From Muribaculaceae bacterium (GTDB taxonomy: Bacteria; Bacteroidota; Bacteroidia; Bacteroidales; Muribaculaceae): 43,234 nt of DNA. Numbering within the stretch: position 1 is the first letter of the stretch; each line of letters starts with the position of its first letter. Position numbers and translations under genes: made by a program. The notes under the pieces are model-generated. The model made no database searches and was not told the DNA's origin. It was given only the letters and a program-made list of their open reading frames with translations. Positions 13,257 to 39,175 of the stretch are shown piece after piece. The stretch spans positions 1 through 43,234 of the forward strand of contig JAIDYR010000036.1 in NCBI GenBank assembly GCA_029057985.1, given 5' to 3'.

Positions 13257-14192
13257 ATGACAAATATCAAAAATCCCAACGCCAATACCATCACGCCCTC
13301 CAACACTACCGGACTTTTCCTCTACATGGCCTCCATCATCCGTCGGCTACGACAAAACGGTCAACTCCGTACGGCCGAGACATATCAATCCGCCCTCAAC
13401 AGTTTCCGCCGCTTCAGAAATTGCAAAGATCTCCGCCTTGCTGATATAGAATCCAACACGATGCAGGATTATCAGGCATGGCTGCGCAGTAACGATTTGA
13501 CACAAAACACTATATCTTTCTACCTCCGCATACTGCGAGCTACTTATAACCGCGCGGTCGACGAAGATTTAATATCTGACCGCCGACCCTTCCGCCGAGT
13601 ATATACCGGAATCGACAAAACATTTAAGAGAGCTCTCCCCCTTACCGTTATAAAGAAAATTTACCGTCTTGATCTTTCAGATAGTCCTGAACTTGACTTC
13701 GCACGCGATATGTTTATAATCAGTTTCATGTTGCGGGGAATGAGTTTTATCGACATGGCCTATCTTCTTAAATCCGATCTATGCGGAGGATATATCACAT
13801 ATCGCCGAAGCAAGACCGGACAGCAACTTAATATACAATGGACGTCAAAGATGGCCGCGATTCTTTCAAAGTATCCTGAAAACCGCAGCCCATACCTTCT
13901 ACCCATTATCAGGCGCGACGACATCAATCCTCGTTACGCCTACAAAAACATGGGCTACAACATCAACCATAATCTCAAACGCATAGCCAAACTTTTAAAT
14001 ATCCCAATTCCGCTCACCCTATACGTTGCCCGCCACAGTTGGGCTTCCGCCGCGCAATCTAAGGGGATCCCACTCCCCCTTATAAGCGAAGGGCTCGGCC
14101 ACGATAATCAAGTGACAACCCAGATATATCTTGCCAGCCTTGACACGTCCGCCATCGATCAAGCCAACTCCCTCATTCTTCGCGACCTCTGA
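13257..14192 (+). CDS. Tyrosine recombinase (site-specific integrase), probable invertase of the adjacent switch
   Basis: 311 residues. An N-terminal SAM-like DNA-binding domain covers ~20-105. The catalytic domain has Arg160 (LRGMSF), Lys186 (RRSKTGQ), Arg259-His260 (YVARHSWAS, with Tyr in the first box II position as is usual in Bacteroidota enzymes), His282 (GLGHDNQ) and the nucleophile Tyr291 (TTQIYLAS). All are present, so it should be active. It stands alone without phage, excisionase or transfer genes. A hairpin terminator follows and then, 88 bp after its stop, a 13-bp inverted-repeat segment carrying a promoter. Bacteroidota use such orphan recombinases to flip promoters, so I infer that it controls cluster A. 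Confidence 0.9.
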   Translation: MTNIKNPNANTITPSNTTGLFLYMASIIRRLRQNGQLRTAETYQSALNSFRRFRNCKDLRLADIESNTMQDYQAWLRSNDLTQNTISFYLRILRATYNRAVDEDLISDRRPFRRVYTGIDKTFKRALPLTVIKKIYRLDLSDSPELDFARDMFIISFMLRGMSFIDMAYLLKSDLCGGYITYRRSKTGQQLNIQWTSKMAAILSKYPENRSPYLLPIIRRDDINPRYAYKNMGYNINHNLKRIAKLLNIPIPLTLYVARHSWASAAQSKGIPLPLISEGLGHDNQVTTQIYLASLDTSAIDQANSLILRDL

Positions 14193-14229
14193 CATCACCG
14201 TCACTTTAGCCACTATCCACAAAACACGA

Positions 14230-14254
14230 ATCGGCCACTTCATCAGCGGCCGAT
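14230..14254 (+). terminator. Terminator hairpin after the recombinase gene
   Basis: ATCGGCC (14230-14236) pairs perfectly with GGCCGAT (14248-14254) around an 11-nt loop, 37 bp past the stop. The tail CAATCCTTCTTCTCTC is pyrimidine-rich. It would separate recombinase transcription from cluster A. Confidence 0.5.
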
Positions 14255-14280
14255 CAATCCTTCTTCTCTCATCCAAATCT

Positions 14281-14293
14281 CTTGATAAGAGAT
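14281..14293 (+). repeat. Left inverted repeat of the putative invertible segment
   Basis: CTTGATAAGAGAT, whose exact reverse complement lies at 14462-14474. It is centred on a small dyad (ATCTCTT-GAT-AAGAGAT, 14277-14293), the layout of a tyrosine-recombinase core site: two arms around a short crossover spacer. A 15-bp direct repeat (TCATCCAAATCTCTT) starts at 14269 here and at 14454 on the other side. Confidence 0.7.
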
Positions 14294-14306
14294 ACTTAAA
14301 TATGCG

Positions 14307-14338
14307 CAAAGATATTAAAAAGTTTTGGAAATAGCAAA
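14307..14338 (-). promoter_or_regulatory. Bacteroidota promoter inside the invertible segment, pointing left
   Basis: On the minus strand TTTG (14335-14338), a 20-nt spacer and TATCTTTG (14307-14314) match the Bacteroidota consensus exactly. As it stands it fires toward the 3' end of the recombinase gene and drives no sense gene. Confidence 0.75.
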
Positions 14339-14461
14339 AATATAGGGACTTAAAAATGTCTACAATTTGATGACTCCCGCATAATAAGATAAATATTTAC
14401 AATCCTTTTTATTGATCTAAACCATATAATATTGAACATAAACGCATTACATATCATCCAA

Positions 14462-14474
14462 ATCTCTTATCAAG
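14462..14474 (-). repeat. Right inverted repeat of the putative invertible segment
   Basis: ATCTCTTATCAAG, the exact reverse complement of 14281-14293. It ends 13 bp before the start codon of the first cluster A gene, so the ribosome-binding region lies outside the flipping DNA. Confidence 0.7.
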
Positions 14475-14487
14475 CGAATATTAACTT

Positions 14488-15831
14488 ATGACTAAAAAAA
14501 ACACTATAATAATATTAATAGCTCTAATATTTTGTCTATTTTTTCTTGCAATATTGTCATTGGGAGGATGTAATCCAGACTGCGATGGAGAAGCCTGCTG
14601 GAAAGAAATTGGATTCGCTACCAAAAAAGATTACCAACATAGAGATTCCATATTTTTAGCCAACAATCCATCTTTAGCGAATCGGGTAAATGTCTATATC
14701 GAAAATTCTGCGAGTATGGATGGATATGTAGATGGGCATACATCTTTTAAAACCACCATCCATCGATTTTGCGGTCATTTAAAAGCTGATGTACTGAGAG
14801 ATGGAAAAAATTTTAATTATTGCTTCATCAATTCAGACACAATTATTCCTATACCGCTAAAAAACGACAATTATACCAAAGATCTAACCTCAGAATCATT
14901 TAAGATTAAGGGAGGCGATCGGGCCAATTCGGATATTATTGGTTTGATTCGTAAAGTTGTCAATACCACAAACCCCGGAGAAATTTCAATGTTCGTAAGT
15001 GACTGCGTATATTCCCCCGAACCTTCAGAAGATATTTTCAAAGCCCTGAGCATACAACAGACGGACATGAATAATATACTGAAAGAGAAGTATAAAAGTA
15101 ATAGCAACTTCGGTGTATTATTATTCCGTATGGTATCGGATTTTAATGGCATTTATTATACAAAGACTAACGCGCATATTCCCATTAATAGAGGACAAAG
15201 ACCTTATTTTATATGGTTTTTTGGTGACCAAAGTATATTAAGCAGTGTATACCATTCCATCTTAAGTGTTGTGCAAGAAGAAAAGGCAGAATACTTAGTC
15301 GGCATACCGGGATATACATATCTACCTTACAAGACTATTGGTTCGCCTCATCCATATCATTACACCGGAACCAAAGCAGACACGGAACAAGATAGTGTAA
15401 GCTTCTATAATTGCAAGTTTGAAGCAGATCTTAGTTATCTACCTATAAGTAATAAATATATCCAAGACATATCCAACTATACTACGCCATCCAAGAGGAT
15501 TTGGGAATTAACAAAAATCGAAGTTCTTACGCAAGATATAGGGGGAAAACTTAAAAAAAATGAAATCCCTTACAACATGAAGTATTCACTAAGAATTTTT
15601 GGTAAATATAATAATTCTATTCCAAAACGTAAAATAGAGATATCTCTGAAATCCATGCTCGATGAATTACCAGATTGGGTTACAAAATATGATGATCCGA
15701 AAGGTGATGATTACAACAACGGATACATTCCAGACAAACAAAGAACTTTTGGGCTAAAAAGTTTAGTAGAAGGCATAAGGGATTTCTATGGAGAATCGAA
15801 CTACGTCACTTTTAATATTTTAGTAAACTAA
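14488..15831 (+). CDS. Cluster A vWA-like lipoprotein
   Basis: 447 residues. The N-terminus is a hydrophobic helix ending at LGGC (Cys ~28), a likely lipobox or membrane anchor. A Rossmann-like vWA domain follows: the strand VNVYIENSASMDGY (residues ~68-80) occupies the MIDAS position, where the usual DxSxS is ExSxS-like (Glu-Asn-Ser-Ala-Ser). Later strands include ISMFVSDCVYSPEPS. The counterpart in cluster B (39642-41144) has the same order of anchor, vWA and C-terminal beta region. vWA domains bind metal-dependent protein partners; the ligand is unknown. It is the first gene of the cluster A operon, right after the invertible promoter. Confidence 0.65.
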   Translation: MTKKNTIIILIALIFCLFFLAILSLGGCNPDCDGEACWKEIGFATKKDYQHRDSIFLANNPSLANRVNVYIENSASMDGYVDGHTSFKTTIHRFCGHLKADVLRDGKNFNYCFINSDTIIPIPLKNDNYTKDLTSESFKIKGGDRANSDIIGLIRKVVNTTNPGEISMFVSDCVYSPEPSEDIFKALSIQQTDMNNILKEKYKSNSNFGVLLFRMVSDFNGIYYTKTNAHIPINRGQRPYFIWFFGDQSILSSVYHSILSVVQEEKAEYLVGIPGYTYLPYKTIGSPHPYHYTGTKADTEQDSVSFYNCKFEADLSYLPISNKYIQDISNYTTPSKRIWELTKIEVLTQDIGGKLKKNEIPYNMKYSLRIFGKYNNSIPKRKIEISLKSMLDELPDWVTKYDDPKGDDYNNGYIPDKQRTFGLKSLVEGIRDFYGESNYVTFNILVN

Positions 15832-15845
15832 CCTTATTTATACTT

Positions 15846-16319
15846 ATGAATAGTTTCTTTATAACGATCTATCGCTGGTTTTGCGATTCGTCACTGGATG
15901 CTTTCAAATACATGAAACGCATAGACGTCGACGGTGAGATGCTAAGTAGCATGATGCCTACTATTGGATGGACTGCTTTGATTATATCAGTACTCATGGC
16001 AGTGGCATTCTACATTTGGCCAATAAATCATCCAAGATTTAAAGCTTGGTGGGCATGGATGATCATGATAGCTATAAATGCTGCAATAAATTTCGGGCTC
16101 ACATTTGCTTTCCTCAGCAATAGAATTGCTTCAATCAAAAATAACACTATTATTTTTGACGAATTTGCCGACACAAACGGCAACTTCTCAATAGCAATGA
16201 TTAATCAAATTAGTTTAGCCACAGCAAACGCATGTGTCAGCATACTCTTCTTTTGTGGAGCCAGTCTGATCCTCACATGGTTTAGCTCCAACTGTAAATA
16301 TTCACCTTTCAGAGCTTAA
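15846..16319 (+). CDS. Cluster A small three-helix membrane protein
   Basis: 157 residues with hydrophobic segments near 40-60, 72-95 and 125-150. The short loop after helix 1 (PINHPRFKAWW) and the basic, aromatic C-terminus recall the protein at 39212-39553, which occupies the same position in cluster B (KPRDPG...RRLWFW and a TWF ending). I recognise no named family. It probably acts as an inner-membrane adaptor for the tubulin-like and actin-like proteins that follow. The spacing is 14 bp from the vWA gene and 6 bp to the next gene. Confidence 0.6.
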   Translation: MNSFFITIYRWFCDSSLDAFKYMKRIDVDGEMLSSMMPTIGWTALIISVLMAVAFYIWPINHPRFKAWWAWMIMIAINAAINFGLTFAFLSNRIASIKNNTIIFDEFADTNGNFSIAMINQISLATANACVSILFFCGASLILTWFSSNCKYSPFRA

Positions 16320-16325: not shown

Positions 16326-17750
16326 ATGCCTAAATTATATATATTTGCTATTGGCGGCACAGGATCTCGCGTACTTAGAGCCCTTACAATGCTTATGGCC
16401 TCAGGAGTCAAAATCAATACTTCTGAGATTGTGCCGATAATCATCGATCCGGATGTCGCATGCGGAGACAAGACTGATACTGTCAACTTGATGAATCAAT
16501 ATTCCAGACTCTATGATACTCAAGCACAAGATGGCAATCGTAAAGTAGAAGCTTTCAGCACTAAGATTACCAATCTGGGATTCCCTACAGATTACGTAAT
16601 GCCTATGGGAGGAAAGACAAATTCGTCATTTGGTGACTATATGCAATTCGGATCACTTTCAGACGAAAACAGAGCCTTAGTCAATATGCTGTTTTCAGAT
16701 GAAAATCAACAGACAGACATGACCATCGGTTTTACGGGCAATCCGAATATTGGAAGTGTCGTACTCAATCAGTTTTCAGAATCTGAAGAGTTTACACTAT
16801 TTGGCAACTCATTCGCTCCCGGAGATAAGATTTTCATAGTAAGTTCTATATTTGGAGGAACAGGAGCAAGTGGATTTCCACTCTTGCTAAAGAATTTGCG
16901 CCACATAAATCCGTCCCAACAGATTCCTAACGCTGCAGCAATTCAAAATGCGGAGATTGGTGCTATTACAGTCCTTCCGTATTTTAATGTCGAGAGCGAT
17001 AATAAATCTGTCATCAGCTCAGATACCTTTATTTCAAAAACAAAATCTGCTCTCTCTTATTATGAAAATAACTTAAATGGACTTAATGTCCTATATTATA
17101 TCGGAGATCGGGAGAGAGGGCAACAGGAAAATAATGAAGGAGGAGCTGAGCAGAGAAATGAAGCCCACTTCATTGAATTAGCAGCAGCCTTAGCTATAGT
17201 TGACTTCGCGAATCATAGCTATCCTACTTCTCAAACTACATGCTATAAAGAATTCGGAATACAAGACAATATCAACGATATCACTCTACGGAATCTCGGT
17301 AGTGTCACCTATACGCAGCTTGCCCGCCCACTTACAGAATTTACTCTATTCAGTAAATACTTTCATGAGAAACTTCCGGAATCCATGAGCCAGCAATGGA
17401 TTTCTGATTATTCCACTTTAATCGGCAGTCCGATTTATGACGATATCTCCCAACTTACATCCTCGTTCATAAGATGGGAAAGGGAGATGGAAAGTAATCA
17501 TCACGCAAGAAGATTTACCCCTTTCATACTGGATCGGCGGCCTTCTGATGTTTTTGGCCTCGCAAAAGGTATCCCCACTGCGTCTGCATTTGGAGTATCT
17601 GCAAGCAACTGGGATTTATTCAATCATTATCTTAATAAAGGTGAGCAATCAAGACTTGCAAATCAACATGGTAAAAATTCCGAAGGAAAGTTTTTAGCCC
17701 ATCTTCTCCTCGGCACACAAAAAGTAGTATCTAAAAAAATCAAATTCTAA
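16326..17750 (+). CDS. Cluster A tubulin-like protein (Tubulin_2 type)
   Basis: 474 residues. The N-terminal FAIGGTGSRVLRAL (Gly-rich loop, residues ~8-14) starts a Rossmann-like nucleotide-binding fold. IIIDPD lies at the second strand. SSIFGGTGASGFP (~175-187) corresponds to the tubulin/FtsZ signature GGGTGTG. It is similar at all three places to the protein at 37511-39175. Bacterial Tubulin_2 proteins are predicted to bind GTP and may polymerise, but their function is not established. There is no membrane segment. The stop overlaps the next ATG by one base (TAATG), implying coupled translation with the actin-like partner. Confidence 0.75.
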   Translation: MPKLYIFAIGGTGSRVLRALTMLMASGVKINTSEIVPIIIDPDVACGDKTDTVNLMNQYSRLYDTQAQDGNRKVEAFSTKITNLGFPTDYVMPMGGKTNSSFGDYMQFGSLSDENRALVNMLFSDENQQTDMTIGFTGNPNIGSVVLNQFSESEEFTLFGNSFAPGDKIFIVSSIFGGTGASGFPLLLKNLRHINPSQQIPNAAAIQNAEIGAITVLPYFNVESDNKSVISSDTFISKTKSALSYYENNLNGLNVLYYIGDRERGQQENNEGGAEQRNEAHFIELAAALAIVDFANHSYPTSQTTCYKEFGIQDNINDITLRNLGSVTYTQLARPLTEFTLFSKYFHEKLPESMSQQWISDYSTLIGSPIYDDISQLTSSFIRWEREMESNHHARRFTPFILDRRPSDVFGLAKGIPTASAFGVSASNWDLFNHYLNKGEQSRLANQHGKNSEGKFLAHLLLGTQKVVSKKIKF

Positions 17751-20700
17751 TGCCCAGCGTATTCAGACTCCATAAATCCGGTGTAGACTCCATTCTGGGT
17801 TGGGGGAATTCAAATCAATATAATTCCAATATTATCCATAGCATTATGGATCCGGCCGGAGCTACCTCCTCTAAAGAAATTACCTCCATACCAAGTCCTT
17901 TTGCCAGAATGGATCTTGTCAGGGAGGCGTTTGCCTTTGTCAACAGGACCGGAATAGACGGCGATACAATTCATCACAAGATGGTGTCGCATGCTATCGA
18001 TATCGCTCAGATATTCTTCAATTTCAACAACTTCAAAGAGTCAGGTCTCATTGATATTATCAAATGGGATAAGAGTGAAATCCAGAATCTGATCAATAGT
18101 AATAATCCTCGACATGCATTATTAGGTCAATCTTATGATCTATTCTTAAATGCTGATTCTCGTCAATTTAATTTTGACGATATGAATGGATTGTACATGC
18201 TTCGATATATCGGTCCAAATGCACCTAATCAATTTACCATTATAGGATCTACTTCGCCTGCAAGTCTTTTCTATACGTCGGCCAATTCCCACCCGTATCT
18301 GAGAGGTAAAATAATCTTTGGCAATCATCAGGCATTAGATGATTCTGACTTCCTTTCCCTCAAGGATAGACATGATGAAGACTTCATCGCATGGTTCTAC
18401 GCTCTAAAGAATGCTATCCCAAATTTCTCGGTAAGATTTCCTGATATCGATAAATATCTGAATCTTAATTTCGGATTGTTATCCCATACCCTGCAGAACC
18501 GTATCAATGCAATGGATGATAGGACTTTTCAGAGTGAGTTCTTACCATTGGAGGTACAAGCCGGAATTCCGGTTGAGATTCTGGGCACTCAATTGACTAT
18601 CAATGGGCCGATTGATATAAGTAAGAATAGTGACTTTGCTATTCAATCACTGAAAGTTGGGGAAAATCGTCCACTGGTATTACCCTCCGATACATTCGCA
18701 CGCCCCTGGATTTATACTACATCTCCATGGACTCATTCTACTGAAGTGCCTGTCAATCCCGGACCTATAGATAATCGTATTCTTCCTGCCGATGGGACAA
18801 AATATCCATATCTGACAATGACTGATTTTCTGGAAGATACTCTTATCATGACAGAAAGTTGCTATAATTCAGAGGATTTCTTTGATGGGAATCTAAACGA
18901 TCGCACAGGAGGAGAACATTCTTTTCTTTTACCAGTAAAACGCACATACTTCGAATATTTTGGAGTAGAAGACCTAAAAAGAGATCTTACAATCATCTGC
19001 GATGAGAGTCCCGGTGGGGGCCTTAGAGTAAAAGTTAGTCTTAAGATTCCGGTAAAAAAAGGATATATTGCTTTTGAGAGAATCTATTTGTCTGACAGTG
19101 CGATACTAAATCCAAAGAATGGCACCATAAAGACTGAGGATTTCGCAATAGTCTTCTATCCCAAAACCATTTTTCCGGCAAATTTAAATCCTGACTATGT
19201 AGTCGGAATTATATCGAAGAGTAATGATTGGAATCCCAGATTCCAATGCTTCTCTAACGAAGCCAAAACGATATTGCCGACTTTAGGCCCTATTGACCGT
19301 AATATGGATGCCGCCGGAAATCGTGTCAATAATGTGGTTCCAAGAATGCCTATGGCTACTTTTGACCAAAATTTTGAAGGCATCGACATATCATCTGATT
19401 CGCTTCATGGTATAGCCATACCTATATGGAGTGGCGTAGCCGGAGGGTCAGTCTTTGAATTTGCGGTAGATTTCGGCACGTCTAATACTCATGTTGAATA
19501 TCGCAAAGATGGCTCGAGTATCTCCAATCCGCTCGATATTCAAGTTGACCATCAACAACTGGCTCTTTATACCGAGGATGCGATTATGGATCCTACTTAT
19601 ATCCTTGCATGTCGTAATACTTGCATCCCCATTAATTTAGGAATAGAGGGAGGAATTCAATTCCCGATGAGAACGTTGCTTTCTTATAAGAAATCGACTA
19701 ATTGGTCTACTCCAACCGCACCATATCTAACCGGTAACCTCCACTTCTATTTCGGAGAAATCGGCCAAGCTGACTATAATGATGTAAAATCTAACTTGAA
19801 ATGGTCAAATGATGTGCATATTACTGCAATGATTGAATGCTATCTCAGTAGCCTGATGGTCATTATGCGTAATAAAGTCATCATGGAGGGAGGCGACCCG
19901 AGTCAGACAAAAATTAGATGGTTCTATCCGACCAGTATGCCCGCAGCTACAGTAGCAAACATTTCTAATATCTGGGCAAGACTATATCGAAAATATTTCG
20001 GAGATGATTTGACAAATCTGACTGAACTCCCCGAATCGATCGCTCCTTACCAATACTATCAGAACACGTATGGCGCCGGAATCGATGTATTGACAGTCGA
20101 TATCGGAGGAGGTACTTCCGACGCCTTTATAGTTGATTCCAACGGAGACCCGGCCTTTATCACATCTTTCCGCTTTGCCGCAAATTCTCTCCTCGGCGAC
20201 GGCTTAATCTCCAATGGCTTGGCCAACAATGGATTTGTCGCAAAGTATCGTCCGATTTTTGATCAGATACTTCAGGCAAATTCCAATCATGCATTGATTA
20301 CTCGATTAAATCAAGTAGCTTCCACGGGCAATTCTGCTGATTTCCTATCGATGTTATTTAGTCTGAAATCAAATTCCGATGTAATAGCAGGAAAATATCA
20401 GGATAAAGTAGATTTCCTTAATATGCTGCAAAATTCGGCAGGAGCAAAGACTTTGATCTTGATATTCTATACTGCTATAATCTACCATCTGGCCACATTT
20501 ATCAAGGCAAAACGTGAGGCCGGGGCAAATGTTCAAGAACCTGCCATTCTTGCATTTAGCGGGAATGGATCAAAACTTCTTCAGACGCTTGGTGTAAATA
20601 CCAACGTTGGGCGCCAGATGCTCGAGACTTATACAAAGGTTCTCTTCGAGAAAGTCAATGGCCGGGGATACCCTCATTCCAAATGTACTATTGTAATTGA

Positions 20701-21124
20701 CTCTGAGCATCCAAAAGAATCGACCTGCAAAGGAGGACTTCTCGCCTCGCGCATTCCTGATTTGCCTGAAATTCAAGAGATGACAGATTCTCTGTTAGGC
20801 ACCTCTCCCAATACGTTTATCAATGAGCGTAAATATAAAGACCTGACCTCCCAAGATTGGGATGGTCTGAAGAGCAATATAGAAGATTTCACACGCATCT
20901 TCTTTGAATTAGCCAAAGAACAAAAGATCACATCAAATTTCGGCACCGTAAGCATGCAAGAACTTGAAAAAAATCGTAAGATTTTTCTCCAGGATCCGAA
21001 ACTTCGGGCCAGTAATGCTCTAATCCTGCAAAAACTACTGAACTCATCTCAGCCGATAGAAGATACTCTCTTCTTCTATCCTGTCACAGAGATGCTAAAT
21101 ACACTTGCAAAGAATCTCTTATGA
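17750..21124 (+). CDS. Cluster A giant actin/Hsp70-fold ATPase
   Basis: 1124 residues. Residues 1 to ~560 form a family-specific region (SPFARMDLVREAF near residue 45, shared with cluster B as IPTAFARVDLFKTAL). The actin-fold ATPase begins at ~569 with the phosphate-1 loop VDFGTSNTHVEY. Phosphate-2 is TVDIGGGTSDAF (~783) and the adenosine loop is ILAFSGNGSKLL (~940). All three are intact, so ATP hydrolysis is likely. No substrate-binding Hsp70 C-terminal domain is seen; ~180 mostly helical residues follow. The closest known relatives are the SrfB-like/Hsp70-like proteins found with Tubulin_2. Translation is coupled to both neighbours (1-bp and 4-bp overlaps). Confidence 0.75.
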   Translation: MPSVFRLHKSGVDSILGWGNSNQYNSNIIHSIMDPAGATSSKEITSIPSPFARMDLVREAFAFVNRTGIDGDTIHHKMVSHAIDIAQIFFNFNNFKESGLIDIIKWDKSEIQNLINSNNPRHALLGQSYDLFLNADSRQFNFDDMNGLYMLRYIGPNAPNQFTIIGSTSPASLFYTSANSHPYLRGKIIFGNHQALDDSDFLSLKDRHDEDFIAWFYALKNAIPNFSVRFPDIDKYLNLNFGLLSHTLQNRINAMDDRTFQSEFLPLEVQAGIPVEILGTQLTINGPIDISKNSDFAIQSLKVGENRPLVLPSDTFARPWIYTTSPWTHSTEVPVNPGPIDNRILPADGTKYPYLTMTDFLEDTLIMTESCYNSEDFFDGNLNDRTGGEHSFLLPVKRTYFEYFGVEDLKRDLTIICDESPGGGLRVKVSLKIPVKKGYIAFERIYLSDSAILNPKNGTIKTEDFAIVFYPKTIFPANLNPDYVVGIISKSNDWNPRFQCFSNEAKTILPTLGPIDRNMDAAGNRVNNVVPRMPMATFDQNFEGIDISSDSLHGIAIPIWSGVAGGSVFEFAVDFGTSNTHVEYRKDGSSISNPLDIQVDHQQLALYTEDAIMDPTYILACRNTCIPINLGIEGGIQFPMRTLLSYKKSTNWSTPTAPYLTGNLHFYFGEIGQADYNDVKSNLKWSNDVHITAMIECYLSSLMVIMRNKVIMEGGDPSQTKIRWFYPTSMPAATVANISNIWARLYRKYFGDDLTNLTELPESIAPYQYYQNTYGAGIDVLTVDIGGGTSDAFIVDSNGDPAFITSFRFAANSLLGDGLISNGLANNGFVAKYRPIFDQILQANSNHALITRLNQVASTGNSADFLSMLFSLKSNSDVIAGKYQDKVDFLNMLQNSAGAKTLILIFYTAIIYHLATFIKAKREAGANVQEPAILAFSGNGSKLLQTLGVNTNVGRQMLETYTKVLFEKVNGRGYPHSKCTIVIDSEHPKESTCKGGLLASRIPDLPEIQEMTDSLLGTSPNTFINERKYKDLTSQDWDGLKSNIEDFTRIFFELAKEQKITSNFGTVSMQELEKNRKIFLQDPKLRASNALILQKLLNSSQPIEDTLFFYPVTEMLNTLAKNLL

Positions 21125-22221: not shown

Positions 22222-23013
22222 ATGAACTGTCAAAATGATAAGAAATCTTCACGGATAACTCTCACTCTAAAGAAGTATATAGAATTATTCGTGAGGATTA
22301 TTAAATCCATCTCTCATTTCTTTGGAGTCGTTATAATTGACAAAGGGATGAGAAAAATAGTGGAACTTTACGACATCCATTCTGCGTCCGGCCAACATCC
22401 TGATCAAACTCATAAAAGATTTATACATAATACTTCTTCAGAGGGTATTTCTGAGGAAAAAGAACCGATGAATCTACAAGATTGCTTACAGAATAAGATT
22501 GCCGAAATTCAGCAAATCAAGAATGATTTCATGCAGCTTAAAATCGAAAAAGACTTAGTAGATTCCAAATGTGCGGAATTGGAAAGGCAATTGTTTTTAG
22601 ATAATAACCATATCAATAATCTCAACGATTCTATCAGTGAACTTACGCAAGAAAATGACAGTCTAAAGGCAAGATGTATGCCTGCTTCAAAGATTCCTGC
22701 AATGATATATTATGGGACAGGTGATTCTACGGGAAAAACTATAAGAAAAATTTCTACTGAAAAATCTTCTCAAATTCTATATAAACTAATTACTCATCCG
22801 GGAAATACCAGTAAGGCAAATTTCTATCCAATCAAGAATGACAACTTAGTCGAAGTCATCTCAAATCGCAATATAATGCTGGGGGCGTGCGAAATTATTT
22901 CTATCGATTCAAATGCCAACGACATAGAGACTATAGAATATGGCCGAGCTATATTTTCTGATAATCAATGGATAATCACATCTAAAGCTAAAATTAAACT
23001 TATAACAGTATGA
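22222..23013 (+). CDS. Cluster A coiled-coil protein with the same C-terminal domain
   Basis: 263 residues. The N-terminus (15-50) is amphipathic or weakly hydrophobic and may associate with membrane. A heptad-rich coiled coil spans ~85-152 (LQDCLQNKIAEIQQIKND onward). The last ~95 residues repeat the domain of the previous protein (FYPIKNDNLVEVISNRN, then EYGRAIF and WIITSKAKI). There is no known family. The pairing suggests a heteromer in which one subunit crosses the membrane and the other does not. Its stop overlaps the MotA-like gene's ATG by 4 bp. Confidence 0.6.
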   Translation: MNCQNDKKSSRITLTLKKYIELFVRIIKSISHFFGVVIIDKGMRKIVELYDIHSASGQHPDQTHKRFIHNTSSEGISEEKEPMNLQDCLQNKIAEIQQIKNDFMQLKIEKDLVDSKCAELERQLFLDNNHINNLNDSISELTQENDSLKARCMPASKIPAMIYYGTGDSTGKTIRKISTEKSSQILYKLITHPGNTSKANFYPIKNDNLVEVISNRNIMLGACEIISIDSNANDIETIEYGRAIFSDNQWIITSKAKIKLITV

Positions 23014-24632
23014 GCAGTTTCATCCTTTGTCTTTTTGTGGTGACAATCATCTGTCTCCAAATATACCTCTTTAACCGTACAGGACGCCTTGTATCTCAAC
23101 TGAAAACAGTACTTTCAATGAGATTCACGACTATTTTGCTACGGGATGACTCTGATGACAAAGAGGTCACTATGATTAAATCTGCGCTGTCAAAATCGGA
23201 CAAAATCACTGAAACTATTGAATATTCTATTAATACGTATCTTCAGAAAAATAAAGGAGCTGTAAGTGATTTTAATCTTATTAAGGATATCGTCGAACGC
23301 AATTGCGACACTCTTGAATCTGAAATATCATCTCAAACGCCACTACCGCTCTATTTAGGCTTGATGGGAACTGTGCTTGGGATTATAATAGGCTTGGTGA
23401 CTATCGCCATAAGCGGAGGTTTTTCCAATATTCAGAATGTAATAGAAACTTTAATGGCAGACGTTGCAATCGCGATGGCTGCCAGTTTTGCCGGAATATT
23501 GTTTACGACCTGGACTCTATGGAAATCCAAAGAGTGTAAGGTAGTTGTAGAGAATAATAAAAATATATTCTATACTTGGATTCAAACTAACCTTCTCCCT
23601 GTCTTATCTCAAAGTGCGGTAAGCGCTATTACCCTATTACAGCAAAATCTTACACACTTCAATGATTCATTTACCGGAACTATTGAACGCCTGGAGGCAC
23701 GACTAAGTAATGTAGGAGATGTCTACGAGTCTCAAATTGAGATTCTGGACAAGATTGAAGCTATTGATGTCAAAAAAATGGCCATTGCAAATGTCAAGGT
23801 ACTGGGAGCATTGGACAGGTCAATGGGAAGTCTGGAGAGATTCTCGCAATATATGAGTGATGTCACTGATTATATAACTGCCGTAAAAGATTTAAATGAT
23901 AAAATTGATGACCATCTGGAACGCACTCATGCGCTCGAGACTATCTCTGAATTCTATCAGACTCAGATGCACGAAATAGAATTACGACAGGAAGGAATCA
24001 GGGCTGCCGTAGTAGCGGTTGATGATGTCATGAAATCTGCCTTAGCTACAATGCAAGCCAATGGAGAAGAGAGCATGAAAGTGATGCAAGAATCCTTCTC
24101 TTCCCAGATTGAGTCCATACAGAGCATAGTAGCATTACTGACAGAAAGATTGACAGCTCAAATTAATCAGATGCCTGAAATAGTTAAAAAACTTAATACC
24201 ATTTCTGAAATTCCCACTAAACTGGATAAACTCATTCATCGCATTGAAAAATCTAATTCACAAATCACAAAAGAATTATCTCGAAATTCCAAACCTATTG
24301 AAGGAATTTCAAACTTTGAGAATTATCAGAATGTATCCGGGTACTCCTCATCCAAGTCTGAAAACACAGGGATAAAATGGGGAATCCTGATTTCGCTCAT
24401 AGTAATAGCACTTATAGGAATTACCAATCTTTCCTATGATATTACATCAAAAACTTACGAATCCCCAAGTAGAGTTGATGAATCTCAGAGTCTTAACGAG
24501 ATCACTAACTCAGAAGATAATTTAGTAGCTACGAAAACTGATACGATAGCTGTGGATTCTATTACTAATGAACACTCAATTAACTCTAACCCGAACTCTC
24601 CAACGAAAAAGAATTTGCCTCACAGACCCTAA
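23010..24632 (+). CDS. MotA/TolQ/ExbB-type stator protein (ZorA-like)
   Basis: 540 residues. A first helix (1-20) is followed by a cytosolic stretch, then the paired helices of the MotA/ExbB domain: LPLYLGLMGTVLGIIIGLV (112-130) and VAIAMAASFAGILFTTWTLW (152-171). A long coiled-coil tail (~200-430) resembles the cytosolic tail of ZorA. Unusually, another hydrophobic helix lies at ~455-475 (GILISLIVIALIGITNLSY), followed by a Ser/Asn-rich tail. The family forms pentamers around two copies of the partner and uses the proton or sodium gradient for rotation. The OmpA/MotB-type partner is encoded 11 bp downstream. Confidence 0.8.
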   Translation: MSSFILCLFVVTIICLQIYLFNRTGRLVSQLKTVLSMRFTTILLRDDSDDKEVTMIKSALSKSDKITETIEYSINTYLQKNKGAVSDFNLIKDIVERNCDTLESEISSQTPLPLYLGLMGTVLGIIIGLVTIAISGGFSNIQNVIETLMADVAIAMAASFAGILFTTWTLWKSKECKVVVENNKNIFYTWIQTNLLPVLSQSAVSAITLLQQNLTHFNDSFTGTIERLEARLSNVGDVYESQIEILDKIEAIDVKKMAIANVKVLGALDRSMGSLERFSQYMSDVTDYITAVKDLNDKIDDHLERTHALETISEFYQTQMHEIELRQEGIRAAVVAVDDVMKSALATMQANGEESMKVMQESFSSQIESIQSIVALLTERLTAQINQMPEIVKKLNTISEIPTKLDKLIHRIEKSNSQITKELSRNSKPIEGISNFENYQNVSGYSSSKSENTGIKWGILISLIVIALIGITNLSYDITSKTYESPSRVDESQSLNEITNSEDNLVATKTDTIAVDSITNEHSINSNPNSPTKKNLPHRP

Positions 24633-24643: not shown

Positions 24644-25300
24644 ATGAGTAAAAAACAGGAATCATACTTCTGGACCAGTTACTCTGATCTAATGACAAGT
24701 CTTTTCTTCGTAATGCTGGTGCTTTTTGTTTTGGCATGCGCAATGCTCAAGAATAAAATTGACGAAGTGGAGAAGCAAAAAGAAGCAACTGAAAAGGAAC
24801 TTGCCAAGATTAGAGAAATTGAGGAGAGTATCCAAGCTATAGATCCAAAATTTTTTGAATATAACTCAACTTATAAAAAGCATATTCTTAAAATTAACGT
24901 TCAATTTCAAAAAAGAAGTGCCGATATTTCCGATATACCGGATAGCAAACAGAAGGAATTAATAGCAGCCGGAAGATCTATCTCCAGATTTCTACAAAGA
25001 TCTTCTGAAGATGTCAAATATCTCCTTGTCATTGAAGGGCAGGCTTCAAATGACAACTACCCGTTAAATGACGAACTAAGTTACAATAGAGCCAACTCAT
25101 TGAAGCATTTATGGTCTCAAAATAATATTGATTTTGGGAATAAATGCGAGATTATAGTCTGCGGTAGTGGTAAAGAAGGTGTAATGCGCTCCCAACCTGA
25201 TAATGCGTCAAACGAAAAAAATCAACGATTTTTAATTCATATCATTCCCAAACCCGGAATTATTGAAAGAATTGAGAAATCTATAGACTCGAATAATTAA
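24644..25300 (+). CDS. MotB/OmpA-type stator partner (ZorB-like)
   Basis: 218 residues. A short cytosolic N-terminus is followed by FWTSYSDLMTSLFFVMLVLF, with Asp15 at the mouth of the single transmembrane helix: the ion-carrying Asp of MotB/ZorB proteins. Then come a coiled-coil plug (~37-65) and an OmpA-like peptidoglycan-binding domain (VIEGQASNDNY ... LSYNRANSLKHLW, ending CGSGKEG). With the upstream protein it should form an ion-driven inner-membrane motor anchored to the wall. Canonical Zorya also needs ZorC/D or ZorE, and neither is here. Confidence 0.85.
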   Translation: MSKKQESYFWTSYSDLMTSLFFVMLVLFVLACAMLKNKIDEVEKQKEATEKELAKIREIEESIQAIDPKFFEYNSTYKKHILKINVQFQKRSADISDIPDSKQKELIAAGRSISRFLQRSSEDVKYLLVIEGQASNDNYPLNDELSYNRANSLKHLWSQNNIDFGNKCEIIVCGSGKEGVMRSQPDNASNEKNQRFLIHIIPKPGIIERIEKSIDSNN

Positions 25301-25328: not shown

Positions 25329-26435
25329 ATGAATAAGCACCTACAGAAATTTGGGATAGGCTTGATTTTAATAATCTGCCTCATCCTTAATGCATGCTCA
25401 AATAGTGAGGATAGACCTGAACCCCTTACTCCTACTCAAGTTGAACAAAGATATTCTTCCGGTGTAGTGCTCATACAGACGTCCTACTGCTATTCCATTT
25501 CATTTAATAATGGACCGACCTTCTACTTCACAGGTATATCTTCCGATGGGAAATTGGAAAATCTAACCATGGACGAGGAGGAGATAAAACCCGTCACTGC
25601 ATATGGGACAGGGTTCTTCATTGGAAAAGACGGACTGATTGCTACTAATTCCCATGTCATATCTCCTACTGTGGATATCGCCACTGCACGCCAGCAGATT
25701 GTAGACGCTTTTCACTCTTTGGCGGCTCAATGGTCAAAGGAAATCAATGAGATTACAGAAAATCTGGGTGTAATAAAAATGGCAATTATTGAATGTGACT
25801 CCTATAGTGATCAATATGAATTGCAGGCAGCCTATAATGAGTTGGAAGAGGAGAGAAATGAGAGACAGGAAGCAGTCAATGCAATACATGCACTTGGAGG
25901 AATGAATTATGAAGCTACCTTACATTCTGAGATTGGTGTTGCATATAACGATTCTCATATCACTAATAACTCGGATTTTCATCCTTGCGTGACATTAAAA
26001 GAAGATGAAGAACATGATTTGGCAATCATTCAATTAAAAGACAAGACTACTCCTGAGAATAGACATATCTTTAGAATTCCAAAAGGCAGATCACGTGATT
26101 CCGAAGATTACGAATCAAATGAAGAGAATAATGGAACTGAAAATAGCATGAAACTCTATATGATTGGATTTAATCTCGGTCCAACTCTTGCGTTAACTAA
26201 TAATGGTCTTAAAGCCCAGATCACATCGGGTGAATTATCTCAAGATACGGATGACGCTCACCTCATGTATTCAATTCCAGCCTTGCATGGGTCAAGCGGA
26301 AGTCCTGTTATTAATCAATATGGCAAACTCATAGCAGTTAATTTTGCAGGATTAGACCAAGCCCAAAGTTTCAACTATGGTATTAAGATTTCATATCTTT
26401 CTAAATTATTGAGCAAAGTCAAGAATAAGGAATAA
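25329..26435 (+). CDS. Trypsin-like serine protease lipoprotein
   Basis: 368 residues. The signal peptide ends at LNAC (Cys ~22), so it is lipid-anchored. The S1C/Trypsin_2 triad is visible: His in LIATNSHVISP (~109), Asp in EHDLAIIQL (~231) and Ser in HGSSGSPVIN (~325). A helical acidic insert (~135-185) separates His and Asp. There is no PDZ domain, unlike DegP. It acts in the periplasm or at the outer membrane. It is the last gene of cluster A, 28 bp after the stator partner, and may be an effector or maturation protease of the system. Confidence 0.8.
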   Translation: MNKHLQKFGIGLILIICLILNACSNSEDRPEPLTPTQVEQRYSSGVVLIQTSYCYSISFNNGPTFYFTGISSDGKLENLTMDEEEIKPVTAYGTGFFIGKDGLIATNSHVISPTVDIATARQQIVDAFHSLAAQWSKEINEITENLGVIKMAIIECDSYSDQYELQAAYNELEEERNERQEAVNAIHALGGMNYEATLHSEIGVAYNDSHITNNSDFHPCVTLKEDEEHDLAIIQLKDKTTPENRHIFRIPKGRSRDSEDYESNEENNGTENSMKLYMIGFNLGPTLALTNNGLKAQITSGELSQDTDDAHLMYSIPALHGSSGSPVINQYGKLIAVNFAGLDQAQSFNYGIKISYLSKLLSKVKNKE

Positions 26436-29137: not shown

Positions 29138-29231
29138 TTTTATATTCTGCCGGAAGATAAAATCGCCTATTTTTATATTCTGCCGGAAGATAAAATCGCT
29201 CATTTTTATATTCTGTCGGAAGATAAAAAGG
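29138..29231. repeat. Three tandem 33-bp hairpin repeats
   Basis: Units start at 29138, 29171 and 29204 (TTTTATATTCTGCCGGAAG...), the third shortened and with one base changed (TGTCGG). Each unit is an imperfect palindrome (GCGATTTTAT-n-TTC / GAA-n-ATAAAATCGC). They lie 100 bp downstream of cluster B, between its terminator and the ATPase gene. Confidence 0.8.
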
Positions 29232-29338: not shown

Positions 29339-30166
29339 TCAGCGTCTGCTACGCATGCGCTGATTGACGCGGCGCTGAACTTCACGATAGCGGTCGCCAA
29401 GCACATTCTTACGCGCGCTGCCGTCGCCGTAGTCGCCGCGGATTGCACGCTTCGCATCTTCCTCCAGATCTCCGGTCGGAGTAGTGCTGACAGCCGAAGT
29501 TGAGGTTTTGGCCGACGGAGCCGGAGCCTGCGGAGCTACTTCGGGAGCGGAGGTTTTGGAAGCCGGAGCCGCCGCAGGAGATTCAGATGCTACGGGAGCT
29601 GCTGCTGCTTCATCTTTAGCCGCTGTAGCGTCAGCAGACGCTTCGGGAGCTGCGTCTTCAGAAGCAACGATGCCGGAAGCGCCCTCCTCTGATTGGGCAT
29701 CCTCGCTCTGCGCAGCGATCTCTGCATCCTGACCTTCTTCGGAATCGGGAGTGGCCTCAACGCTTTCTATAACCTCTGACTCAGGCGCCTCATTTTTGTC
29801 ATCTCCCTTACGGAGCAACAGCATTGCTATGAAGGCAAGGACTATCGCAACTCCGATAAGAGCCCATAGCCATGCCGTATTCTTGCGCTTGGGTTCTGCC
29901 GGACCTTCCTCAATAGCAATGTCCGTAGCAGTCTGACTGAGATCCGGCATTGCCGTAGAGGCAGGCACCTGCATTTCCGGAGCCTTTACCTCTGTAGCAG
30001 TCGGAGTGACAACAGTCTTTGGAGCCTCTGAAGCGGCCTCGACTGCATCAACTGCGTCATCTTCTATATCCTTTGAGAGATTGAATTTTCTTTTCGACCC
30101 TTTATCAATGTCGAATTTTCGTTCAGTACCTTTGTTAAGGTCGAACTTTCCGTTCTTCTTTGCCAT
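29339..30166 (-). CDS. Cluster B TerD-motif membrane protein with Cpl-7-like C-terminus
   Basis: 275 residues. The N-terminus carries three tandem copies of a K/R-F-(D/N)-(L/I)-x-K-G motif (GKFDLNKG, RKFDIDKG, RKFNLSKD), the same motif that opens both TerD proteins next door (FNLNKGERFSL, RFDLKK). A single transmembrane helix is at ~94-117. A long Ala/Glu/Ser-rich disordered linker follows. The last ~45 residues (AIRGDYGDGSARKNVLGDRY, then VQRRVN) resemble a CW_7 (Cpl-7) repeat, which binds muropeptides. I infer a tether between cytosolic TerD assemblies and the wall. It is the last gene of cluster B. Confidence 0.65.
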   Translation of the reverse strand: MAKKNGKFDLNKGTERKFDIDKGSKRKFNLSKDIEDDAVDAVEAASEAPKTVVTPTATEVKAPEMQVPASTAMPDLSQTATDIAIEEGPAEPKRKNTAWLWALIGVAIVLAFIAMLLLRKGDDKNEAPESEVIESVEATPDSEEGQDAEIAAQSEDAQSEEGASGIVASEDAAPEASADATAAKDEAAAAPVASESPAAAPASKTSAPEVAPQAPAPSAKTSTSAVSTTPTGDLEEDAKRAIRGDYGDGSARKNVLGDRYREVQRRVNQRMRSRR

Positions 30167-30189
30167 AAATGATAGTTTTAGTTCGTCAT

Positions 30190-30798
30190 TTATTCCGCAA
30201 ACATTCCTACGAGCGTCTCCAGACCTCCGTCATAGGCCTTGCCTTCTGCCTCGAATTCCCATTCGCCTTCATCATTGAGGATGAAGCGCCCTGCCACGCA
30301 TGCGTTTTCGTTGACATAATCAGTGCTGAGTTCATATTCGCAGAGAGCCTCATCGGAATCCTCGTCTATCACTGTGATCTTAGCCGCGCTCACATTTCCG
30401 AAAGTCATGCCGTCGTTATAGACGGTAGCGGAGATTGCTATTTCCGCTACTGAAGGATCTACCTTGGAAAGGTCGACGTTGATAATCTCAAGACCGCCCT
30501 GCTGCATATCCTTCGCTCCAAGCACCGCACCATCGGCACTCATGGGCCGCGTCTTTTCCAGATAGTTTCTCTTATTTCCGAACTTCGCCTTATCGAAAGG
30601 TTCGGAGCGATTTGCAGAATTATAGAATACGAAAGCTTCGTCATTGATGATCATGCCGTCTTCATTAAGCAGCCATGCCTGCACGTCGAGGTCCTCGCCT
30701 GCAAAAGTCAGTTCGACACGTATGTTGTTAAGGCCCAGATCCTTCTTCAGAGAGAAGCGATCGCCGGCGCCGAGTTTTTTAAGATCAAATCTGCCCAT
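30190..30798 (-). CDS. TerD family protein, degenerate calcium loop
   Basis: 202 residues. The TerD fold is recognised by EDLDVQAWLLNEDG, FYNSANRSEPFD and the closing NENACVAGRFILNDEGEWEF. Family members bind calcium through acidic loops and work as cytosolic surfaces in Ter stress systems. In the loop after MSADG the acidic run is weakened to GAKDMQQGGLE, whereas the neighbour keeps DDLGGEDSGE, so one calcium site may be lost. It lies 21 bp after the other TerD gene and 23 bp before the membrane partner. Confidence 0.88.
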   Translation of the reverse strand: MGRFDLKKLGAGDRFSLKKDLGLNNIRVELTFAGEDLDVQAWLLNEDGMIINDEAFVFYNSANRSEPFDKAKFGNKRNYLEKTRPMSADGAVLGAKDMQQGGLEIINVDLSKVDPSVAEIAISATVYNDGMTFGNVSAAKITVIDEDSDEALCEYELSTDYVNENACVAGRFILNDEGEWEFEAEGKAYDGGLETLVGMFAE

Positions 30799-30819
30799 TG
30801 TTGTTTATGAATTAGATGA

Positions 30820-31425
30820 TTAAGTGTACATATCTACCAGAGTCTGCAGGCCGCCGTCATAACCGTTGCCGATGGCAGCGAACTCCCATTCTCCATCTTC
30901 GTTAAGCACGAGCGAACCGGCGATCACCGCTGATTCCGTAGAGAAGTTCTCTTTCAGATTATAGTGGCAAAGTTCTTCGCCTGTCTCTTCGTTGATGATT
31001 ACTATCTGCGGATCTTTAACGTCGCGGAAAGACTCCGACCCGTGGATGGTCACACAGAACACGATTTCCGTCACTTCCGGACGAACTTTTGACAGCTCCA
31101 CATGCATTGTTTCTCCTGAATCCTCTCCGCCGAGATCGTCGGCCGACCCCAGAACTGATCCGTCAAAACTCATCGGAACTGTCTCATTCTGCCAGTTGCG
31201 CTTGCTACCGAATTTCTGACGATCATAAGGTTCAGAGCGATTTGCAGAGTTATAGAATACGAAGTCTGCGTCTTCGAGAATCACGCCATCTTCTCCCAGA
31301 AGGAAAGCCGTCGCATCCAGATCCGCTTCGGAATCCCACTTAAGATCTACCTGAATCTTCTCCAGTCCCTCTTCCTTAGCAAGCGAAAACCGCTCGCCCT
31401 TGTTGAGATTAAAATTTCTTGCCAT
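30820..31425 (-). CDS. TerD family protein
   Basis: 201 residues with the TerD pattern: an N-terminal NFNLNKGERFSLAKEEG, then ADLDATAFLLGEDG, FYNSANRSEPYD, the acidic loop GSADDLGGEDSGE and ESAVIAGSLVLNEDGEWEF at the end. Calcium-binding acidic residues look complete. It is clearly a paralogue of the next gene and probably forms a pair with it. The name tellurium resistance is historical; in this setting a role in a membrane-linked stress or conflict complex is more likely. It is cytosolic. Confidence 0.9.
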   Translation of the reverse strand: MARNFNLNKGERFSLAKEEGLEKIQVDLKWDSEADLDATAFLLGEDGVILEDADFVFYNSANRSEPYDRQKFGSKRNWQNETVPMSFDGSVLGSADDLGGEDSGETMHVELSKVRPEVTEIVFCVTIHGSESFRDVKDPQIVIINEETGEELCHYNLKENFSTESAVIAGSLVLNEDGEWEFAAIGNGYDGGLQTLVDMYT

Positions 31426-31493
31426 ATTAATTATGATTATTGATTATTTCTTAAATTCGATAACTCAATGTTTCATAGAGATAAATGCGTTCA

Positions 31494-37507: not shown

Positions 37508-37510
37508 GGA

Positions 37511-39175
37511 TTATTCGTTAAAGTGTTGGGCAATAGTAATCGTATTATAAAGTTGGGCTAAGAATTCCTCCTTCAGATTCTGGGCCTGGGCCTCATCGGG
37601 AAGACTATCCTCCTTCTTGATGATATTCACAAAAGTATTGAATCGACGGTCGGCGGAATTCATGGAGAAGCCTGACTTATCCCAGTGATGGATGCCATCG
37701 GCGAATATTGTGCCGGGATCTATATCATGGAGTCCCGCGATATCCGTGATGAATGCATCGGGCGAGAATATAAACTTGCCTGCTCCTACCGAACGAAACA
37801 CCTGATATATCCATCCGAAAATGACATCGCCCTTAAAGAACTTATAGCCGAATTCCTTCAGATATTCGTCGATTTCAGCGCATTGAGTATCGGTCAGGTC
37901 GTTATATTCGCGGAATCCTGCCTTATCAAGATAGTCGAGCAGAGCGACAGTCCCGCAGACTTCTTCATGTGCCCCTCCGAATTTGGAAAGTATGATATGG
38001 GCCAATGAAAGGAAGGCTCCGAGTTTATTCTCGAAAATCTCCCCTTTCTGAGTCCCTACGAAACTTGAGCCGGAGAGCTGCATGTTGCCGTTATCATCGA
38101 TGAGGACCGTGCGGAAATCATATTCAGCCTCGCCGATATCTTCGAGTTCCTTTCTGGGAGCGTTAAAGAAATCATAGGCTGCGGCGGCACACATCAACTC
38201 GGCGACATGACATGCATTGCGCTGGTCATAACCACCTGTCACGACATTTCCCGCCTGCCCTTCGGAATAGTTGAGTTTAAGACTGCCCGGCCATCCGATA
38301 TGGTACATCTTCTTATACGTCTTCCTGACAGTAGGGTCATCGTTATAGAAACTCAGGGCAGCCTGAGAGTTCAGCGCGAAGTTATTGGAGTCTGCTACTA
38401 CCTTATCTTCCGCCAATTGGGCCGAGGTCGGATTCTTGAAAGTGAAATAATCGGTAAGCAGAGTTGATCCGAAGAGCACTTTCTTAAGGTTCAAGACATT
38501 GTTGCCTCCGGTGAGAATCTTCAGGGCTTCACTGATTGCGATCGGGATGACGGGGATGGATGATGCTCCGGTCCCGCCGAAGACGCTGCCGAATACGAAT
38601 ACCCGGGCATTGCCGGAATGCTTGTTGATCAATTGGAGATATTCGGCGAGTTCTTTCTCCTGGGGCTTCACGAAATCGCCACCCTTCTTGGCATTCAGAG
38701 CAGCCTCGATGATACCGTGATACATCAGCATGGAGCCTAAATGCGTCTGGGCCCGATAGCCGTGGTCGAGTTTGAATTGCTGCACGGTCTCACGATCAAA
38801 CAGCAGATCGGATAGATCCTGATTGTCGCGGCGTTGTTCGTCGTTCAGGTTCCGGGTAGCGGCCAGAGCATTGAGGGTCTGACGGTTGGGAGTTGAGTAG
38901 TCGGTAAAGAAGCGATAGAGGTTGAGTTTGGCTGAAAAGAAAGTATTGGACCGCTGCTCTCCTCCTATTTTTGAATTATCATTTGTCTTTACCTTATTGT
39001 ATAATTCTATCAGGCGTTCTACCCGATCCTTGTTGCCGTTGTTCTGGTCAGTATCCAGCGTGAGGATTTCGATGGTATGGTTATCGAAAAGCCCGGCAGC
39101 ACAGAGATGCACAAACGCCTCGAGACACCTCATTCCGGTGCCTCCGATTGCTATGAGAAATAGTTTGTCGTTCAT
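37511..39175 (-). CDS. Cluster B tubulin-like protein (Tubulin_2 type)
   Basis: 554 residues. LIAIGGTGMRCLEAF (residues ~7-21) is the N-terminal Gly loop, followed by LTLDTDQNNGNKDR. The signature GSVFGGTGASSIPVIP lies at ~193-208, equivalent to the tubulin/FtsZ GGGTGTG loop. It is ~80 residues longer than the cluster A homologue, partly from extra segments near 65-160. It is predicted to bind GTP and to be cytosolic; polymerisation is unknown. It is followed after 3 bp by the giant ATPase gene. Confidence 0.78.
   Translation of the reverse strand: MNDKLFLIAIGGTGMRCLEAFVHLCAAGLFDNHTIEILTLDTDQNNGNKDRVERLIELYNKVKTNDNSKIGGEQRSNTFFSAKLNLYRFFTDYSTPNRQTLNALAATRNLNDEQRRDNQDLSDLLFDRETVQQFKLDHGYRAQTHLGSMLMYHGIIEAALNAKKGGDFVKPQEKELAEYLQLINKHSGNARVFVFGSVFGGTGASSIPVIPIAISEALKILTGGNNVLNLKKVLFGSTLLTDYFTFKNPTSAQLAEDKVVADSNNFALNSQAALSFYNDDPTVRKTYKKMYHIGWPGSLKLNYSEGQAGNVVTGGYDQRNACHVAELMCAAAAYDFFNAPRKELEDIGEAEYDFRTVLIDDNGNMQLSGSSFVGTQKGEIFENKLGAFLSLAHIILSKFGGAHEEVCGTVALLDYLDKAGFREYNDLTDTQCAEIDEYLKEFGYKFFKGDVIFGWIYQVFRSVGAGKFIFSPDAFITDIAGLHDIDPGTIFADGIHHWDKSGFSMNSADRRFNTFVNIIKKEDSLPDEAQAQNLKEEFLAQLYNTITIAQHFNE

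Follow-up and report, generated by a model that had tools for sequence, protein, structure and literature searches.

We analyzed a 43,234-nt stretch of contig JAIDYR010000036.1 from a Muribaculaceae bacterium (assembly GCA_029057985.1; the whole stretch is called the window here), which carries a candidate invertible promoter between a tyrosine recombinase gene and an operon encoding tubulin-like, actin-like, and motor-like proteins. The AT-rich intergenic stretch between the recombinase gene (13257-14192) and the operon start (14488) holds an inverted repeat with arms at 14281-14293 and 14462-14474. The arms match exactly over 13 bp, and the repeat grows to 16 nt (14278-14293/14462-14477) if one mismatch is tolerated. 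The window holds no other exact inverted repeat of at least 13 nt with a 60-300 nt loop, and a repeat of at least 13 nt arises in 3 of 5000 dinucleotide shuffles of 14193-14487. Each arm sits inside a 17-nt palindromic site, ATCTCT-N5-AGAGAT, and the two spacers (TGATA on the left, TATCA on the right) are exact reverse complements. Taken alone, the site pattern at up to three mismatches is not significantly enriched in the window (7 observed versus 4.6 expected); what is rare is the paired arrangement of the sites. A first-pass annotation of this DNA had reported the repeats and had described them as inverted crossover sites. The coordinates and geometry are right, and the sites are built that way, with spacers of 5 nt.

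The same annotation placed the sole consensus promoter between the repeats, on the minus strand and directed away from the operon, and this too holds. The promoter scores 10/10 against TTTG/TAnnTTTG and no other full promoter of the Bacteroidales type lies near the operon; over the 260 bp upstream of the ATG, the top plus-strand candidate scores 8/10 and a second minus-strand candidate 9/10. Recomputing the inversion about the site centers places TATCTTTG at 14441-14448, ahead of the ATG at 14488, just as had been proposed for the -7 box. The flank TCATCCAA outside the left site recurs in identical type left of the right site, at 14454-14461. We could not uphold the claim that the recombinase gene has its own terminator, as the T tail of the hairpin behind it is on the minus strand and a terminator scan of 14100-14600 found no plus-strand terminator after the gene. 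With its T tail on that strand, the hairpin would terminate transcription in the OFF state. Because this leftward terminator-like hairpin intervenes, we do not favor a model in which the OFF promoter silences the recombinase by antisense transcription. The hairpins at two related loci, L041 and L124, appear bidirectional by eye.

The recombinase gene directly upstream is complete, as had been annotated, with matches to PF13102 and PF00589. R160, K186, R259, H282, and Y291, which we take to be its catalytic residues, are invariant across seven aligned recombinases including this one. The protein is shorter than most relatives (311 versus ~400 amino acids) because it is missing their Arm-DNA-bind_5 domain.

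We read 14277-14478 as an invertible promoter cassette that is flipped by a tyrosine recombinase, is now OFF, and governs the operon, and we give this reading a probability of about 0.84. The invertible promoter is real in structure and, judged from the comparisons below, very probably real in function. The sites, their spacers, and the promoter direction, together with the family-wide spacer rule and the opposite orientations in relatives, are all visible in the sequences themselves. Three points go beyond the sequences and are inferred: continued flipping of this copy, the role of this recombinase in flipping it, and transcription of the operon mainly in the ON state. Recombination between the two ATCTCT-N5-AGAGAT sites, by the neighboring tyrosine recombinase or by a related enzyme encoded elsewhere in the genome, would invert the DNA between them; the reverse-complementary 5-nt spacers make this possible. 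As sequenced, the only full promoter would fire left, toward the hairpin behind the recombinase gene. After inversion, with the -7 box in its new place, transcription would begin roughly 30 nt upstream of the operon's ATG. The coordinates of all features are given in Table 1.

Table 1. Positions of the candidate switch, the recombinase gene, and the operon genes in the window
Feature	Position	Strand
Left recombination site, ATCTCT-TGATA-AGAGAT	14277..14293	
Right recombination site, ATCTCT-TATCA-AGCGAA	14462..14478	
Candidate invertible cassette, 202 bp, site centers 185 bp apart	14277..14478	
Promoter TTTG-20-TATCTTTG, OFF orientation, directed away from operon	14338..14307	minus
Hairpin with terminator-like T tail, for leftward transcripts	14229..14255	minus
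ATCCAA-type flank (within TCATCCAA, 14269-14276), left of left site	14271..14276	plus
Approximate place of the relatives' TTGTTTAGCAAA motif, degenerate here (6/12)	14394..14405	plus
Tyrosine recombinase, 311 aa (amino acids), without the N-terminal arm-binding domain of longer relatives	13257..14192	plus
A1, first operon gene, lipoprotein-like (LSLGGC, by eye)	14488..15831	plus
A2, 157 aa, conserved in operon	15846..16319	plus
A3, tubulin/FtsZ-like	16326..17750	plus
A4, 1124 aa, actin/MreB/Hsp70-like domain	17750..21124	plus
A5, 364 aa, no assigned identity	21121..22215	plus
A6, 263 aa, coiled-coil-like matches only	22222..23013	plus
A7, MotA/ZorA-like, long tail, weak matches	23010..24632	plus
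A8, MotB/ZorB-like, OmpA-type C-terminus	24644..25300	plus
A9, trypsin-like peptidase	25329..26435	plus

The element belongs to a family. A DNA search with about 14269-14339, which covers the left repeat and the promoter, found similar stretches in 33 of 111 genomes of the genus (own genome included), and 15 of these 33 had more than one match, partly the two ends of one element. We then scanned the window and most loci fetched up to then (L, G, and C numbers are our handles for loci, genomes, and contigs) for ATCTCT-N5-AGAGAT pairs 130-320 nt apart, demanding no spacer match. This gave 65 pairs once duplicates were removed. The spacers were exact reverse complements in 43 and differed by just one mismatch in none, while shuffled spacers gave a mean of 2.4 and a maximum of 8 exact pairs. 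Spacers vary between elements, with 18 classes among the 43. The site-to-site distances peak at ~174, 185 (the value in the window), and 196 bp, and the best period over the 43 lengths is 10.85 bp, with 0 of 2000 jittered sets equally periodic. For the 21 unique lengths alone the figure is 9 of 2000, shared ancestry being left in. A single site on contig C40 of the same genome (L001), apparently within a coding region by eye, was rejected as a chance match.

Two homologous elements in the same genome (G000), L004 on contig C66 and L005 on C107, have their inner 245 bp in opposite orientation, with 197/245 identities flipped and 149/245 unflipped. Both lie near contig ends and are possibly capsule-linked; one adjoins a gene read by eye as UpxY/NusG-like; C66 terminates in a long G-rich run resembling an assembly artefact. 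A second line of evidence comes from the flanks. Among 25 recombinase-adjacent elements, 18 have an ATCC or CATC flank on the outer side of the left site and 20 on the inner side of the right site, against just 2 and 1 on the remaining two sides. Given this asymmetry in OFF-type elements, inversion should create ATCCAAATCTCT-N5-AGAGATTTGGAT at one end. This junction, at up to two mismatches, is present in 15 of the 111 genus genomes at 23 distinct places, and a reversed-pattern control is present in none of the 111; the pattern had been noticed in L040 and L022 ahead of the search. Sixteen junction sites were examined, of which 12 have a partner site and 4 do not. The -7 box lies at the predicted far end in 9 of the 12 partnered junctions, at the near end in 2 (L272, L273), and is unclear in 1. 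Opposite orientations and predicted inversion junctions exist in relatives.

The recombinase-adjacent elements are mostly OFF. Calling the state from the position of the TAnnTTTG box only, we found 31 OFF, 4 ON (L056, L259, L262, L266), and 3 unclear among 38, counts on which we rejected a symmetric 50:50 switch for such elements. Because the search of the 111 genomes used an OFF-state query, we recounted the 28 elements that remain without the window and the loci numbered from that query, and found 22 OFF, 4 ON, and 2 unclear (p = 5e-4, or 9e-4 without L075, whose junctions are identical to those of L072); several of the 28 were also matched by the OFF-state query under another locus number, and relatedness was left in. 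Elements not adjoining a recombinase are mixed in orientation. The bias agrees with the case of Tsr19/BF2766 in Bacteroides fragilis, where the local promoter is found mostly OFF and the distant one shows no bias (PMC4747536), and we take this as a match. Of 1837 invertons surveyed in the gut, 1011 showed their minor orientation at a frequency of 0 to 0.01 (PMC11892184). One switch, L041:1551-1767 (G018 C8), has scattered single Ns in and around it, which could be mixed sequence in the sample.

A further feature of the family may be linked to this bias. Of 38 elements with an assignable promoter end, 33 carry a motif near TTGTTTAGCAAA at 83-87 nt from the promoter-distal edge (at least 8 of 12 letters; shuffled mean 1.4, maximum 7). 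Among the 32 elements whose recombinase has the arm domain, 23 have a similar motif starting ~19 nt to the outside of the left site. Arm-DNA-bind_5 (PF17293) is present in the four long relatives tested (L007, L188, L196, L054), and L032's recombinase has no match to it in Pfam. We scored the arm domain across the set by tblastn with four query domains, with Pfam confirmation for six recombinases only. An initial count, for which the higher-scoring of the two reading directions was used, found the motif in 30 of 32 elements with the domain and in 3 of 6 without (Fisher p = 0.02). Counting only the direction that fits the orientation, the inner motif is present in 30/32 with the domain and in 0/4 without (the window, L032, L231, L234; p = 2.5e-4), after L027 and L178 were set aside because their recombinases are cut by Ns or a contig end, a choice made after the data were seen. 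The window and L032 share one clade, so there are fewer independent losses than rows. L231 is missing the inner motif (7/12) and keeps the flank match (9/11); L232 has a 325-amino-acid frame, yet an arm-domain match at 1e-6; and L030 and L259 have the domain with motif scores below 8. We presume that these recombinases use the motif as an arm-type site. The OFF bias may be caused by the asymmetric flanks and, in relatives, by the arm-type sites, and the window copy may have lost its arm sites together with the arm-binding domain. The OFF bias, the association of the TTGTTTAGCAAA motif with the arm domain, and the ~11-bp spacing period are new beyond the first-pass annotation.

Several observations weigh against a working switch at this locus. 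A flipped copy of this very locus was found neither in its own assembly nor among the 111 genus genomes. The outer half of the right site has two mismatches to ATCTCT-N5-AGAGAT, the window element has 6 of 12 letters of the TTGTTTAGCAAA motif, and PF17293 is not matched in its recombinase. A site pair was not found within 1000 nt downstream in 52 of 90 recombinase relatives, 8 of which had less than 250 nt of downstream sequence. Finally, an inverted repeat of this kind lies upstream in 9 of the best 80 of 138 operon loci in named genomes, some of which have little upstream sequence. With a weak right site, an absent arm motif, and a short recombinase, the switch could be locked.

The cassette could descend from an invertible promoter and be decayed and locked OFF here, which we consider rather unlikely. 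The missing arm motif and arm domain and the two right-site mismatches would fit such decay, as would the rather long tree branch (0.57) of the recombinase. However, the reading frame and the presumed catalytic residues of the recombinase are intact, and OFF elements in general have degenerate right outer half-sites (21 mismatches in 31 elements, versus 7-8 in the other halves). In addition, L004 and L005 have no TTGTTTAGCAAA motif, yet are found in opposite orientations.

It is also conceivable, though improbable, that the cassette flips by means of a different recombinase. The same genome encodes a close relative on contig C27, 58% identical, that has the arm domain and no inverted repeat of at least 13 nt found downstream of its own gene; it is a possible second actor on the cassette, and several switches of the family have no adjoining recombinase. 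Against this, the adjacency of recombinase and switch recurs, with 38 of 90 recombinases having such an element within 1000 nt downstream, and Tsr19 acts on its own local promoter (PMC4747536).

An integrated element with these sites as its attachment sites is very improbable: the 15-nt flank TCATCCAAATCTCTT is a direct repeat and the long relatives have an integrase-like build, but just ~200 bp lie between the sites, their spacers match in inverted and not direct register, and opposite orientations and predicted inversion junctions exist. An accidental repeat or a mere hairpin, into which each palindromic site could itself fold, is scarcely credible given 3/5000 shuffles and the family-wide spacer rule. 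The invertible cassette remains our preferred reading. The claim of phase variation made in the first annotation gains support from sequence comparison (spacers, L004/L005, junctions, and the locus in G010 described below). Its suggestion to compare related genomes for flipped versions bore out for relatives and paralogues, and not for this locus itself.

The operon recurs in other genomes. A core order of lipoprotein, A2, tubulin, 1124-amino-acid actin-like protein, MotA/ZorA-like protein, and MotB/ZorB-like protein is found in Bacteroidales and in further Bacteroidota. Recognizable counterparts of A5, A6, and the trypsin-like gene are less frequent. A recombinase adjoins the switch in 7 of the 9 loci noted above (L149, L153, L178, L186, L188, L196, L198) and not in L183 and L189; L197 has an unrelated repeat and was excluded. 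In the genus set there are 20 operon matches in 19 of 111 genomes, with switches before the operon in the window, L117, L120, L121, L122, L124, and L135 (L117, L120, L121, and L122 are the same loci as L149, L183, L188, and L189). Switches before homologous operons are mostly OFF. In G010 (L120/L183), the promoter faces the operon, which is the ON state (10/10, spacing 22). The promoter in L186 probably also faces the operon: both strands score 8/10 and the sole full TAnnTTTG box points that way, although the repeat and the recombinase (40% identity) are of another type. L186 comes from a genome labelled Acetatifactor, a Firmicute, and probably lies on a mis-binned Bacteroidales contig.

Ten operon-near recombinases, including that of L150, which is not accompanied by a switch, fall in scattered positions on the recombinase tree, with 9 label changes against a shuffled mean of 9.6; at least 3 changes are forced by well-supported branches, and the bootstrap had not settled. 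From this scatter, the pairing of operon and switch probably arose more than once, and it suggests that a mostly silent state is part of the biology of the operon.

The protein assignments rest on profiles and models. The predicted fold of A3 is tubulin/FtsZ-like: its AlphaFold2 model has a predicted local distance difference test (pLDDT) score of 80, with a Foldseek match to FtsZ at E = 5.8e-4 and low TM-scores of 0.27/0.37. A4 is predicted to contain an actin/MreB/Hsp70-like domain (pLDDT 85; Foldseek MreB3, E = 2.0e-8, TM 0.18/0.50). A8 matches ZorB in PADLOC at 1.3e-12 and, in the PDB, 8vvn and 8qyd, which we take to be Zorya motors; its N-terminal helix keeps the invariant Asp D15, presumably the proton site of MotB-type proteins. 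A7 has a weaker ZorA match (PADLOC, 2e-5), with MotA_ExbB slightly below the Pfam cut-off, and its profile matches helical proteins in the PDB. The ZorC, ZorD, and ZorE models had no match among the ten proteins scanned.

The operon resembles Zorya in its ZorB-like and weaker ZorA-like matches and differs in having tubulin-like, actin-like, and trypsin-like proteins instead of ZorC, ZorD, or ZorE matches. GTPase-centric conflict systems of the GAP1-N2 type also bring tubulin and HSP70-family proteins together, some in neighborhoods with vWA proteins (PMC7159879); the window operon differs in its MotA/MotB-like pair, and we neither recognized nor searched for a GAP1 GTPase in it. By analogy with Zorya and these tubulin/HSP70 systems (PMC7159879), an anti-phage or other conflict role is plausible. 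That the machine is costly or toxic, as first proposed, is a guess.

As a kind, the switch falls among the Bacteroidales invertible promoters, and Tsr19 is its closest precedent. As in the window, an invertible TAnnTTTG promoter lies directly behind the recombinase gene of Tsr19 (IVp-I local, IVp-II distant; PMC4747536). The target here, a tubulin/actin/motor operon, is different, and the likeness is one of described arrangement. The Mpi-type capsule promoters of Bacteroides are similar in length (183-186 bp in B. intestinalis), and genes with NusG/UpxY-type matches also follow switches of the present class, but the Mpi-type promoters use a serine recombinase and a repeat, GTTCGTTTAA, overlapping the Mpi repeat ARACGTTCGTN (PMC8375218). 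Known invertible targets include surface proteins, extracellular polysaccharide loci, restriction-modification systems, and SusCD orthologues (PMC12632263).

The long relatives of the window recombinase share the arm-binding domain (Arm-DNA-bind_5) with integrases of the lambda/CTnDOT type, and their fixed-position motif may be the arm-site counterpart; unlike those integrases, they appear to run promoter inversion. An arm-binding domain is described as a strong predictor of phage or integrative and conjugative element mobility, and Rci recombinases as having no such domain (PMC8138268). The long relatives would be an exception to that rule; the recombinase in the window resembles Rci in having no arm-binding domain. 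In the accessible portions of the open-access literature, neither a switch at this operon nor the presence of arm sites in promoter inverters was found described.

A broader account, which we offer as tentative, is that a promoter-inverter family of gut Bacteroidales descends from arm-binding (lambda/CTnDOT-like) integrases and that the TTGTTTAGCAAA arm site, the ATCCAA flanks, and helically phased spacing hold the recombinase-side switch OFF. The window would carry a stripped variant that had lost the arm domain and the arm site jointly, and the tubulin/actin/ZorAB-like machine, perhaps an immune or conflict system, would be expressed by only a few cells. Switches of this kind precede the cluster in related genomes in both orientations, so single cells can probably turn this machine on or off. 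The points of interest are the target operon, which combines a tubulin with an actin-like protein and a proton-channel-type motor and is tied to a switch that would make its expression heterogeneous, and the OFF-holding architecture. Arm-type sites with flank asymmetry are a testable idea for an OFF-biased tyrosine recombinase, and natural arm-less variants, the window among them, are built-in controls.

Switches of the same class also lie before genes matching NusG/UpxY, fimbrial proteins, DUF3575, leucine-rich repeats, SrfB, type IIG restriction, radical SAM, and TerD; 6 of 19 genes behind such switches had no Pfam match. OFF switches precede a type IIG restriction gene (L054:2352-3566), an SrfB gene (L023:1725-3050), and a radical-SAM gene with a PADLOC viperin match (L072:2735-3877). 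Tandem pairs of switches with unlike spacers occur in L022 (G101 C32), where the distal switch looks ON and the proximal OFF, in L069 (G125), and in L076 (G233), where the two lie before a homologue of the first operon gene.

The window also contains a second, minus-strand cluster at 29339-43123 with two TerD proteins, a tubulin-like protein that is 27% identical to A3 over 343 columns, and a 1316-amino-acid protein weakly similar to A4; it holds no inverted repeat of at least 13 nt with a 60-300 nt loop. Between an AAA/DUF4143 gene and this TerD cluster, a 33-bp unit is repeated in tandem in 2.8 copies (29138-29228).
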